NCBI RefSeq assembly: GCF_007994075.1
Contig: NZ_VIWU01000001.1
Location: 1,302,001 to 1,366,000 of the forward strand
From: Pseudonocardia hierapolitana
GTDB lineage: Bacteria; Actinomycetota; Actinomycetes; Mycobacteriales; Pseudonocardiaceae
Direction: 5' to 3'
Length of the DNA stretch: 64,000 nt
Below the pieces are notes generated by a model, which worked only from the letters and a program-made list of their open reading frames with translations, had not been told where the DNA came from and ran no database searches. Shown here one piece after another: positions 33,522 through 54,242 of this stretch. Position 1 is the first letter of the stretch. Each line of letters starts with the position of its first letter. The translations under genes were made by a program, and so were the position numbers.

Positions 33522-33688
33522 CTAGCGCCCCGTCCAGGGAGGTCGGTGCGTAGATCGGTGGATCCAGGCGTTCGCTGGCAAGGCGGAGGAAGGTCCGCGT
33601 ACTGGGCGTACTCGGGCCTTCCGACAACGCAGCCAGCGGACGCCTGGGCCGCCGAGATACGTGCGGACCTTCCTGGACGGGGCGCTAG
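33522..33688. repeat. Long hairpin element, copy A (CTAG-bounded)
   Basis: 167 bp. The outer arms CTAGCGCCCCGTCCAGG (33522-33538) and its complement (33672-33688) are perfect over 17 bp and pairing continues, with a few mismatches, over about 23 more pairs. Second arms are 33564-33578 and 33633-33647 (15 pairs, one wobble). Third arms are GGAAGGTCC (33588-33596) and GGGCCTTCC (33614-33622), closing a 17-nt loop (33597-33613) that contains CGTACTGGGCGTACTC. A second copy with different arms but conserved loop lies at 50534-50701. Could be a hairpin mobile element or a structured RNA. Confidence 0.85.
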
Positions 33689-50533: not shown

Positions 50534-50701
50534 CTAGTGCTTCCCGCCGGAGGTTCGTCGGGGGTATCGGTGGATCCAGCTTCTCGCTGGGCGTGCCGGC
50601 GGGCAGCCCTCGTACCGGGCGTACTCGGGCTGTTCGCCGGTGCGTCCAGCGTGGAGCTGGGCCGCAGAGACCCTTGGCGAACCTCCGGCGGGGAGCACTA
50701 G
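50534..50701. repeat. Long hairpin element, copy B (CTAG-bounded)
   Basis: 168 bp. Outer arms 50534-50557 and 50678-50701 pair over 24 bp with one wobble. Second arms 50576-50590 and 50646-50660 (15 positions, one mismatch, one wobble). Third arms 50596-50609 and 50627-50640 (14 bp with two G-T wobbles) close a 17-nt loop (50610-50626) with CGTACCGGGCGTACTC. Shared with copy A are ATCGGTGGATCCAG, the loop and CTGGGCCGC; the arms are otherwise different. The insertion sequence begins immediately after its terminal CTAG. Confidence 0.85.
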
Positions 50702-51660
50702 CGCGTGTTTACTAATCGGCGGAGCCAGATGTTGATCTCTACGATCTGGGTGGTGGCTTCGAAGCGCAGGGCGAGCTTGTCGTAGCGGGTGGCGAACCCT
50801 CGGTGCTGTTTGTGCAGGTTGATGCTGCACTCAACGGCATGCCGCTGGCGGTAGATGTCGGGGTCGAACCGTGGAGGCCGTCCACCACGTGATCCACGCT
50901 TACGCCGGTGGGCCTGCTGGTCGCGCTTGATCGGGATAGTCGCGCGGATACCGCGTCGGCGTAGGTAGGCGCGGTTGGCCCAGGATGAGTAGGCCTTGTC
51001 GGCCAGTACCCGGTCCGGTCGGGTCCGGGGCCGCCCCTGCCCGGGCCGCAGGACCCGGATGCGTTCCAGGACCGGCACGAACTGCGGGCTGTCTCCTCGA
51101 TGCCCGGCGGTGAGCAGCATCGACAGCGGCTTACGCCCCTGCTCAGAAGCCAGATGCAGCTTTGTGGTCCATCCGCCACGGGACCGGCCGAGTGCGTGGT
51201 CGGCCGGCTCATCACCGGGTGGTTCGACTTGACCGGCCGGGTCTTGGCGGGCGCCCGCGGCGTGCTGGTGCGCCCGCACGATCGTGGAGTCCACCGACAC
51301 GTCCCAGCAGATCAGGCCAGCCTCGTCACCGAGTTGCTGCAGGCGTTCCATGATCCGGGTCCAGATGCCGTCACGTTGCCAGGCCCGGAACAGGCCGTAG
51401 ACCGACTGCCAGGACCCGTACCGCTCGGGTATGTCCCGCCACGGTGTGCCGGCACGGGTCCGCCACCGGATCCCGTCGATCAACTGTCGTCTGGTCCACG
51501 TTCGGGGCCGCCCACGCCCACTCACCGCAGGTAGCAGGGGTGCAAGCAGCTGCCACTGCGCGTCGGTGAGGTCATGACGGGCACCCGCGGGTACGGTCCC
51601 CACGAGGTCTCCGGTGGTGATGGTCTTCTTGGTCGTTGATCCATCTACCGGAGGCCTCAC
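50698..51660 (-). CDS. IS5-family DDE transposase
   Basis: 320 aa from GTG 51660; an internal GTG at about 51600 (VGTVPAGARHDLT) may be the real start. N-terminal DUF4096-like domain DLTDAQWQLLAPLLP, RRQLIDGIRWRTRAGTPWRDIPERYGSWQSVYGLFRAW in pieces. DDE residues are in DVSVDSTIVRAHQHAAG, RVLADKAYSS and AVECSINLHKQHRGFATRYDK, all intact, so it should be active. The stop codon TAG is not part of the element: it is read from the CTAG target duplication. Confidence 0.92.
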   Translation of the reverse strand: MRPPVDGSTTKKTITTGDLVGTVPAGARHDLTDAQWQLLAPLLPAVSGRGRPRTWTRRQLIDGIRWRTRAGTPWRDIPERYGSWQSVYGLFRAWQRDGIWTRIMERLQQLGDEAGLICWDVSVDSTIVRAHQHAAGARQDPAGQVEPPGDEPADHALGRSRGGWTTKLHLASEQGRKPLSMLLTAGHRGDSPQFVPVLERIRVLRPGQGRPRTRPDRVLADKAYSSWANRAYLRRRGIRATIPIKRDQQAHRRKRGSRGGRPPRFDPDIYRQRHAVECSINLHKQHRGFATRYDKLALRFEATTQIVEINIWLRRLVNTR

Positions 51661-51719
51661 TCATCTCCGCCGACCGACACGCGCTGGCCGACGACGAAGA
51701 TCCACTTTCTAAACAGGCG
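50702..51719 (-). mobile_element. IS5-group insertion sequence (1018 bp, complete)
   Basis: Flanked by a 4-bp target duplication CTAG (50698-50701 and 51720-51723), typical of the IS5 group (target YTAR). Imperfect terminal inverted repeats: left CGCGTGTTTACTAA, right (reversed) CGCCTGTTTAGAAA, 11 of 14 matching. One transposase gene fills the element. Insertion occurred in the CTAG that ends hairpin copy B and that also holds the stop codon of the ThDP-enzyme gene. Confidence 0.88.
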
Positions 51720-53345
51720 CTAGTGCCCCCGGAAGGCTTCCGCCAGCCACCAGGAGCCGCCGTCCGAGGCGATGCGCGCGTGCACCAGCAGGGGGGCGTC
51801 CCGGGGCCCGGCCACCCAGTGCGCCACGGCGTCGAGGTCGGCCTGCGCGTTCACCGTGACGGCCTCGAACCCGTAGCCCCGGCCGATGGCGGCGATGTCG
51901 GTGTCCGGGAACGCCACGGTGGTGTGGTCCTCGCCGGTGAAGTGGTGCACCTCGGCGCCGTAGCCGCGGTCGTCGTACACCACGACCACCATCTGCAGGC
52001 CCAGCCGCGTCACCGTCTCCAGCTCGGCCGCCGACATCAACGCGCCGCCGTCGCCCAGCGCCGCGACGGTGAGCCGGTCCGGCCGGGCGCACGCGGCGCC
52101 GATCGCGGTGGCCAGGCCCAGCCCGATCGACTGGAAGCCCTGGGTGAGGCAGTAGCCGTGCTCGTCGGGCACCCGCAGGTAGGCGCTGGGATAGCCCATG
52201 AAGTTGCCCGAGTCGACCGCCACCGTCCGTTCGGCGGGCAGCAGGTCGTCGAGGGCGATCGTCAGCGTGCGCGGGTCGATGCCGTCGGCGCCGGTGAGGT
52301 CCTTGTAGGGCTCGCTGCGCCAGCGGCCGCGCTCCGCGATCGCGGCCGCGACCTCGGGTGTGCGGTAGCCGGTGGGCGGGCCGTCGAGCGCCGCGCGCAC
52401 GTCCTCGGCCGTCGCTCCGACGTCCCCGAGCACACCCAGGTGCACCGGCCGGTTCGCGCCGATCGCGTCGGCGTCGAGATCGACCTGGACGACCGTCGCG
52501 TCCGGGCCGATCAGCGCGCCGTGGCGCATCGTCCACATGTTGAGCGCGCAGCCCCACCCGACGACGAGATCGGCGCCGGAGATCAGCTCGGCGGCGAGCG
52601 GGGTGGCGAAGCCGCCGGAGATCCCCAGGGACCACGGATCGTCGGCGAAGAGACCCGCCGCGACGGCGGACGTCGCCAGCAAGGCGCCGGACGCGGCCGC
52701 CAACTCGCGCAGCTGCGCACCAGCCGCGCGGGCACCGCGACCCGCGACGAACACCGGCCGCGCCGCCCCCGCGATCAGGGCGGCGAGCGCCTCGACCGCC
52801 TCCGCGCCCGGACGGACCGGGGCGAGCGGCTGCACGGCGGGCACGGGCCCGGCGTCCACGTCCGCCGCCTGCACGTCGAGCGGCAGGTTGAGCACGACGG
52901 TGCGGCGCTGCTCCACCGCGGTGCGGTAGGCGCGGACGACGTCGGCGAGCGCGGTGGCGGGCGAGTGCACCCGCTCGGCCACCGCTCCCACCGCGCGGGC
53001 CAGCACGTCCTGGTCGATCCGGAAGTTCGAGCGCACCGCGCCCGCCCCGGTGTCGGCGGCGAGCACGATCATCGGGGTGCGGCTCTTCGCCGCCTCGGTG
53101 ATCCCGGTCATCGCGTTGGTGAGCCCGCAGCCCTGGTGCACCGTGAGCACGCCGACGCGCCCGCTGGTGCGGGCGTACGCGTCGGCCATCGTCGCGGCGC
53201 CGCCCTCGTGCCGCGCCGCGACGTACGGCACCCCGCCGTCGCGCAGCGCGTTGGTCACGTGGAAGTTGCCGCTGCCCACCACGCCGAACGCGTGCCCGAC
53301 GCCGAGCTCGGCGAGGGCTCGCCCGACGAGTTCCGCGACCGTCAC
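51720..53345 (-). CDS. Thiamine-diphosphate-dependent enzyme (decarboxylase/acetolactate-synthase family)
   Basis: 541 aa. GTG overlaps the stop of the cyclase gene (GTGA). Three-domain ThDP architecture: N-terminal pyrimidine-binding domain with catalytic Glu in AARHEGGAATMADAYAR, central domain (about 180-330), and C-terminal PP domain with LGDGGALMSAAELETVTRLG. The ThDP motif GDG...N ends in Asp (VVVYDDRG) rather than Asn, a minor variation. Candidate activities are 2-oxo-acid decarboxylation of an aromatic or branched substrate. Its TAG stop lies in the CTAG target site duplicated by the IS, so the reading frame survived the insertion unchanged. Confidence 0.88.
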   Translation of the reverse strand: MTVAELVGRALAELGVGHAFGVVGSGNFHVTNALRDGGVPYVAARHEGGAATMADAYARTSGRVGVLTVHQGCGLTNAMTGITEAAKSRTPMIVLAADTGAGAVRSNFRIDQDVLARAVGAVAERVHSPATALADVVRAYRTAVEQRRTVVLNLPLDVQAADVDAGPVPAVQPLAPVRPGAEAVEALAALIAGAARPVFVAGRGARAAGAQLRELAAASGALLATSAVAAGLFADDPWSLGISGGFATPLAAELISGADLVVGWGCALNMWTMRHGALIGPDATVVQVDLDADAIGANRPVHLGVLGDVGATAEDVRAALDGPPTGYRTPEVAAAIAERGRWRSEPYKDLTGADGIDPRTLTIALDDLLPAERTVAVDSGNFMGYPSAYLRVPDEHGYCLTQGFQSIGLGLATAIGAACARPDRLTVAALGDGGALMSAAELETVTRLGLQMVVVVYDDRGYGAEVHHFTGEDHTTVAFPDTDIAAIGRGYGFEAVTVNAQADLDAVAHWVAGPRDAPLLVHARIASDGGSWWLAEAFRGH

Positions 53346-54103: not shown

Positions 54104-54166
54104 TGTTCCTCCCGGGGTTCGGCACCAATCTCCCCCCAACCTATGGCCCCAGGCCCTCCCGGCGGA

Positions 54167-54221
54167 GTTCAGGAAAGCCACATTCAGGGCTGTGCTGGCC
54201 CTGAATGTGGCTTTCCTGAAC
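54167..54221. terminator. Perfect 24-bp hairpin between minus-strand genes
   Basis: Arms 54167-54190 and 54198-54221 are perfectly complementary over 24 bp around a 7-nt loop (TGTGCTG). The right arm contains CTGAATGTGGCTTTCC. It is A/T-richer than its surroundings. It lies after the stop of the alpha/beta hydrolase and before the cyclase gene, consistent with a terminator for the former. Confidence 0.7.
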
Positions 54222-54242
54222 TTCCGGGCCGCGGCGTGACGC

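Follow-up and report, generated by a model that had tools for sequence, protein, structure and literature searches.

The window analysed here, a stretch of 64,000 nucleotides from the genome of Pseudonocardia hierapolitana (NZ_VIWU01000001.1, positions 1,302,001 to 1,366,000), contains two members of a hairpin family that is very probably a non-autonomous TA-type mobile element (MITE) with IS630-like ends. Its class is known; what is new is one conserved core with differing ends. Selection acts, with high likelihood, on one folded strand of this element and, given such selection, that strand rather probably acts as RNA and not as single-stranded DNA (ssDNA).

Two hairpins in the window

Copy A occupies positions 33522-33688 (167 nt) and copy B positions 50534-50701 (168 nt), both on the + strand and both including the C and G of the flanking CTAG, so that the elements proper lie at 33525-33685 and 50537-50698; the initial annotation had placed both hairpins and their lengths correctly. 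Their folds reach -145.4 kcal/mol (z = -15.4) and -152.9 kcal/mol (z = -17.2), respectively, each matched by none of 200 dinucleotide shuffles. Aligned together with 100 flanking bases on each side, the two copies reach a mean column identity of 76%; blocks in the core are conserved and the arms differ. The loop CGTACYGGGCGTACTCGGG is exact in both, in line with the earlier observation that the loop is kept while the arms differ, and these are its 2 exact matches in the window, where 0.06 would be expected with up to three mismatches.

The architecture first proposed, three stacked stems and a 17-nt apical loop, needs revision: the loop is conserved, but each copy is nearly one continuous hairpin and the 'apical loop' itself holds a GUAC/GUAC stem of 4 bp capped by a loop of 5 nt. 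This conserved apical segment reads CGTACTGGGCGTACTCGGG in copy A (33598-33616, + strand) and CGTACCGGGCGTACTCGGG in copy B (50611-50629, + strand). The conserved core segments ATCGGTGGATCCAG and CTGGGCCGC had been taken as unpaired; most of their bases in fact pair mutually, via a bulged A and G-U wobbles. On the + strand of copy A they lie at 33554-33567 (mostly paired, with the bulged A) and 33644-33652 (pairing with the GGATCCAG side), and on that of copy B at 50566-50579 and 50657-50665.

The outer arms of copy A, at 33525-33557 and 33653-33685 (+ strand), are terminal inverted repeats whose inner limits are approximate, being drawn from the comparison with IS630 ends over 34 nt of the hairpin ends and from the fewer wobbles in the outer 24 pairs. 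They are flanked by the left (33523-33524) and right (33686-33687) TA of a target duplication, recognized from the sequence and from the empty site in related genomes; for copy B, the TA at 50535-50536 and 50699-50700 are presumed to be a target duplication from sequence alone. Elsewhere in the window, positions 54166-54222 hold a terminator-like, perfect 25-bp inverted repeat with a 7-nt loop.

Family size and distribution

Where two copies had been seen at first, we analysed 48 in the P. hierapolitana genome and 145 in all genomes; the latter are those retrieved, so at least 145 exist among the genomes searched. Lengths range from 157 to 176 bp in both sets, and 135 of the 145 measure 166-169 bp, too short for a transposase of their own. 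Copy B belongs to a cluster whose 24 members are closely similar; the P. hierapolitana genome contributes 15. Searching this genome (8.86 Mb, a single contig) with the sequence of copy A gave 41 matches, including the self-match and reverse matches. A covariance model built from 31 copies gave 97 matches at E <= 10, both strands of the same hairpins counted, and recovered copies that the plain sequence search had overlooked.

Covariance-model searches of actinobacterial genomes bore out the expectation of many copies with compensatory arm changes. In a search of 100 genomes with stricter filters, in which matches per genome are those among the matches listed, 34 had matches at E <= 0.01: P. 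hierapolitana, 31 of 59 others of the same genus and 2 of 40 others of the order (G063 and G090). One locus of Pseudonocardia lacus shares identical flanks with a locus of G054, a genome listed under that genus. An order-wide search found matches in 25 of 298 genomes (P. hierapolitana included) and 14 of 76 genera, and plasmid records add Streptomyces, Kitasatospora, Embleya and Streptantibioticus, with many of the matches partial; for the first 11 plasmid loci, cmsearch confirms nine at E <= 3.3e-8 and two weakly. With Pseudonocardia in Pseudonocardiales and Streptomyces in Kitasatosporales, at least two orders of Actinomycetota carry the element.

Five loci (L004, L025, L035, L039 and L040) were left out as partial or doubtful. 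Alignment A2 was made without L007, L027, L033 and L037, and alignment A5 without L007, L033 and L037; these last three form a subfamily with ends (C/G)TAGGCCG... that by eye resemble those of the Kitasatospora plasmid copy L285 CTAGGCCCTGTCCGG. Outside the 145 stand two short copies of the P. hierapolitana genome (G000): L112 (G000:C1:3700916-3700995), an 80-bp B-type copy with both ends but no core, which may be an in-place deletion, and L113 (G000:C1:3448198-3448295), a relative shortened to 98 bp whose outer stem is long.

Rfam gave no match at gathering score in the whole window, and the best sub-threshold match around copy B was to a microRNA-precursor model, at 27.1 bits against the 77.5 needed. 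Likewise, a literature search, with most subscription journals outside its reach, found no description of the hairpin family. The view that this is not a described element is upheld by both searches as far as the family goes, but not for its class, since TA-type MITEs are already known.

Insertion at TA sites

The initial annotation had considered a mobile hairpin at CTAG sites, and occupied and empty sites between species establish its mobility. The copy A site is empty in three related genomes (G022, G004 and G011), with GTAG where copy A has CTAG...CTAG. A second case is L026, two copies in an ABC-transporter operon (BPD_transp_1 and ABC_tran genes) that we compared with eight genomes. The flanks overlap by exactly TA in five of the eight at site 1 (G048, G022, G030, G011 and G004) and in three at site 2 (G022, G030 and G011), which makes eight clean empty-site comparisons with TA duplication on insertion. 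Other sites are unoccupied with a diverged junction (site 1 in G018 and G049; site 2 in G048, G018 and G049), site 2 is occupied in G004, and G058 gave no orthologous stretch. Of the CTAG boundary, the TA is the part that matters; its outer C and G differ between copies (GTAG..CTTC in L005, ATAG..CTTT in L021).

Six sites among the retrieved copies are occupied in two genomes each, three in the same orientation at 0.89-0.91 identity and three in opposite orientation at 0.61-0.77. The opposite-orientation pairs, including copy A and L121 in G030, look like independent insertions at the same TA. Three identical copies lying at different places in G001, and likewise three in G004, also point to recent movement.

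Element ends and insertion sequences

What the first reading missed is that terminal inverted repeats similar to those of IS630-type elements make up most of the outer arms: the outer ~33 bp match the ends of several different IS630-family elements. The P. hierapolitana genome has four DDE_3 (PF13358) genes, among them those of three near-identical 1274-bp insertion sequences (IS) with ends CTAGTGCGTTGACCACGAACGTTCACCGGG, and L121-type hairpins have nearly the same ~30 bp as the ends of this IS. Across 32 DDE_3 loci from P. hierapolitana and 17 other genomes, compared over 34 nt of the hairpin ends, 13 ends from 11 loci match the hairpin end better than all 200 shuffles each (for example, 31 of 34 nt in G050), a null that is too lenient because the IS ends had been selected beforehand, on account of good local similarity and a terminus like CTAGTG. 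Five loci (L230, L231, L266, L269 and L274) are additionally defined by their own inverted repeats. No DDE_3 match was found in four of the 17 hairpin-bearing genomes searched (G001, G007, G030 and G048), all four rich in hairpins.

Candidates for an autonomous partner were rejected or weakened. All 33 pattern matches to B-type ends in P. hierapolitana (up to three mismatches) fall in listed copies; 12 of 14 matches to G001-type ends in G001 pair as hairpins and two are single; and the P. hierapolitana pair 596495/597528 encloses a stretch that encodes an ABC-transporter permease.

The ends of Streptomycetaceae copies differ again. One end type, AGGGCTGTCCCGTAATC, occurs upstream of a short transposase ORF with HTH_Tnp_4 and DDE_Tnp_1 (L299; 95.7% over 23 nt), a single case with a truncated ORF that we read as IS5-type. 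H89/L298 was considered as a further Streptomyces case and set aside, since it proved to be a palindrome of 36 bp next to a DDE_5 transposase, and the end of that transposase element was not found. L298 and L300 are 36-bp palindromes of two Streptomyces-type ends only, one of which overlaps the end of a Rid-family hydrolase gene.

In the window, an IS5-type element (PF13340 and DDE_Tnp_1; region 50698-51723, ORF 50698-51660 on the - strand) adjoins copy B at its CTAG edge, and its transposase ORF stops at the TAG formed by that edge (50698-50700). An automatic search for inverted repeats of this IS gave nothing convincing; its ends were named by eye, the other one at the CTAG at 51720. Its end sequence also flanks copy L017 of P. 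hierapolitana, and the IS may use hairpin edges as targets.

Strand-specific conservation of the fold

The arms remain self-complementary despite differing in sequence, as had been seen between copies A and B, and compensatory changes occur in many clusters. In an alignment of 52 cluster representatives, both partners have changed in 44 of 56 pairs, and 94.6% of cells are paired, as against 81.0% in shuffled and 36.5-46.8% in slid versions. None of 500 shuffles and none of six slid versions equals the real alignment in any of the five covariation measures, with a consensus structure taken from the same alignment.

Pairing is moreover specific to one strand, which substantiates the earlier suggestion of selection on folding. 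Over the 145 copies, we counted 1587 G-U against 91 A-C, with G-U above A-C in 145 of 145, in a strand-neutral self-alignment that scores both transition mismatches alike; in 55 cluster representatives the counts are 598 and 56, in the same direction in 55 of 55. The outer 24 pairs contain 92 G-U and 16 A-C, and pairs 24-71 contain 486 and 34. RNAalifold gives -84.9 for the + strand and -36.8 for the - strand, and reading orientation solely from the loop motif gives the same answer for 142 of 145 copies (two ties, one opposite). The polarity extends to Streptomycetaceae, where G-U (174) exceeds A-C (38) in 18 of 19 copies, the exception being the Streptomyces copy L309, and the + strand folds better in 19 of 19. 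In this comparison the orientation of seven loci comes from homology to the query, the loop motif being undecided for L304-L307 and L309 and weak for L302 and L303. Five of five loci in other genera, with L283 left out, have the same polarity.

Could templated correction between the arms, by quasipalindrome correction or gene conversion, be all that keeps a plain palindromic MITE complementary, the folded strand itself being functionless? Double Watson-Crick changes are indeed common (9 private, 14 shared), and two ortholog-like pairs carry them: L102/L162 has two, and L026_2519 and L192_601, which share site and orientation, differ by four among 11 changed pairs, for which in-place compensation, conversion and re-insertion cannot be told apart. 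However, correction should erase wobbles and be strand-neutral, whereas G-U prevails throughout and occurs in at least three sequences at 32 of 56 pair columns, as against 3 of 56 for A-C, so that a strand-specific bias would have to be added. Arm-templated repair, raised in the initial annotation, may contribute, but as the whole explanation it is improbable.

Strand-biased mutation, such as deamination, might instead generate the G-U excess without selection. Private C>T changes do outnumber G>A, 23 to 7, but so do private A>G over T>C, at 18 to 7, which arise by another chemistry and yet affect pairing alike, even if the shared set is weaker (8 to 4); and both fork orientations occur, yet every copy has the excess. 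We find this explanation barely credible. Single-copy changes in seven clusters have a weaker bias (41 versus 14, plus 32 transversion-type breaks), as expected if the fold is kept during propagation and decays after insertion. Mobility alone does not account for the strand bias of the wobbles, which points to selection on one folded strand.

Insertion in stop codons

The first reading also missed that many copies sit in stop codons. A coding frame runs into the element on 88 of 290 sides, and 66 of these 88 stop at a TAG made of the target TA and the element's first base. This count, like those that follow, leaves out sides or frames below the script thresholds. On 67 sides (61 elements) the TAG lies in stop phase, with the far TA intact in 51 and altered in 16, and 62 of the 67 frames end at the TAG by the script criterion while five seem to continue. 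Reading phase alone proved unsuitable as proof, since most background TA sites in the window share this phase (316 of 351 coding sides), presumably because they belong to Tyr codons. For this reason, the real evidence is the base on the far side, which after an intact TA (n = 51) is G in 44 cases, A in seven and never C or T. The excess at stop codons may reflect survival rather than targeting, as copies landing at other points of a gene would tend to disappear.

A host cis-regulatory RNA (terminator, attenuator or riboswitch) that is not a mobile parasite would also suit the many stably folded copies found right at stop or start codons. Yet no evident function unites the neighbouring genes of A, B and the L026 copies, both L026 elements sit on stop/start overlaps of one operon in opposite orientations, presence varies among related species, the same TA is taken by different subfamilies in opposite orientation, and Rfam offers no match, which together make such a role very improbable. 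Nor would a cis role in mRNA explain the strand preference, because genes ending at a copy share the element's orientation nearly as often as they oppose it (32 and 35). In tandem gene contexts, antisense to the + strand prevails by 50 to 17, a count that is confounded with fork direction.

Orientation relative to replication

With dnaA (at 3.536 Mb in P. hierapolitana and 0.6 kb in G022) taken as the origin and the opposite point as the terminus, the + strand opposes the fork in 58 of 76 copies (p = 4.7e-6), 39 of 48 in P. hierapolitana and 19 of 28 in G022, the latter not significant by itself (p = 0.087). Copies with a near relative (<6% divergence) oppose the fork in 15 of 17 cases in P. 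hierapolitana and in 15 of 24 in G022 (a split of 15 to 9). In convergent and divergent gene contexts the bias is 23 to 8. A review describes orientation bias with replication, and contact with the sliding clamp, for several IS families (PMC5371812).

This bias is also what might be seen if the + strand acted as folded ssDNA, in replication, conjugation or single-strand transposition, with G-T tolerated better than A-C. Copies on large actinobacterial plasmids would suit such a role, and DNA parameters favour the + strand too (55 of 55), for which reason fold energy does not serve as an RNA-versus-DNA test. Against it, double-strand DDE transposition is what the 2-bp TA duplication and the resemblance to IS630 ends would fit, and the better-folding strand would mostly lie on the leading-strand template, the opposite of what the same review describes for IS200/IS605 (PMC5371812). 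The P. hierapolitana genome also has no match to the Y1 transposase PF01797, for which five of 14 control genomes were positive, and an origin from REP/RAYT or IS200-type systems was rejected for this reason as well. An ssDNA role thus appears unlikely.

A model for the family

We regard as probable a MITE whose fold is kept by selection on the + strand, most likely as RNA, and which is mobilized by IS630-type transposases in trans. It inserts at TA, mostly within CTAG, and duplicates the TA, as the empty sites document. Given the sequence match between the outer ~25-33 bp of its arms and IS630-type terminal inverted repeats, IS630-family DDE transposases probably move it in trans; part of the difference between subfamilies lies in which IS630 element their ends match, one Streptomyces subfamily being IS5-like in a single case. 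The outermost G turns the target TA into TAG, so that landing in a stop codon spares the protein end, in keeping with the many surviving copies found there. Fork direction may govern insertion or retention, as the observed bias suggests. The inner hairpin, with its strand-specific fold, would be held by selection on the + strand, the selected molecule most likely being RNA: + strand transcripts would form a ~75-bp hairpin whose fixed core is read by a host or element factor, for which NEMIS RNA suggests, by analogy, RNase III or another double-strand RNA binder as the first candidate. On this model, arm covariation follows from two demands: the outer pairs must fit the transposase and each other, and the inner pairs must keep the fold.

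More tentatively, the inner hairpin might be a selfish, conserved RNA module that swaps its outer arms and rides on IS630 and even IS5-type transposases, with its length nearly fixed at ~168 nt and its + strand RNA acting in trans, for example in transposase recruitment or nuclease defence. We consider this possible, with the odds somewhat against it, and retain the trans-mobilized MITE with a selected + strand as our working model.

Small hairpin transposons are usually viewed as deletion derivatives of one IS, the fold being a side effect of having inverted ends. In this family the fold seems to last longer than the ends do: Pseudonocardia and Streptomyces copies have the core and the strand polarity in common but not the ends. 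The wobbles keep the + strand paired yet spoil the DNA palindrome, which makes the family a natural test of RNA function in a bacterial MITE. Furthermore, a TA target plus a terminal G, giving TAG, is a simple means by which a parasite could avoid doing damage where genes are densely packed.

Comparison with known systems

Integron attC sites combine conserved core sites with an integrase that recognizes the folded strand. Among the small intergenic repeats, ERIC/IRU measures 127 bp and belongs to enterobacteria, and we know of no strand-specific covariation described for it. It resembles the hairpins in its TA termini and folded RNA, and its orientation matters for its effect on mRNA, according to the description in PMC2229807. 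In that same account, Correia/NEMIS of Neisseria likewise has TA termini and transcripts that fold into stem-loops, for which cleavage by RNase III has been proposed; a conserved core with differing ends is not among the features given there (PMC2229807).

YPAL/RU-2 of Yersinia is close in size (~168 bp) and is likewise intergenic, mobile and not A+T-rich, and may affect the stability of upstream transcripts; it is presented, however, without TA termini, with duplications of 3-26 bp and with internal inverted repeats, whereas the hairpins have a 2-bp TA duplication (PMC2229807). REPs, associated with RAYT or IS200-IS605 transposases, are also repeated palindromes, but of 20-40 bp (PMC3733652), and the Y1 transposase is absent from the P. 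hierapolitana genome. BOX, RUP and SPRITE are folded repeats as well; the orientation bias of the hairpins, set against the account of these repeats in PMC3049150, differs in extending to sites where the adjoining genes converge or diverge. RUP of Streptococcus pneumoniae, whose movement has been ascribed to IS630-Spn1, shares with the hairpins small size, a TA target, IS630-like ends, a folded structure and an intergenic location (PMC2229807). RUP is 107 bp long with one partner IS named, whereas the hairpins are mostly 166-169 bp, GC-rich, and combine one core with several end types.
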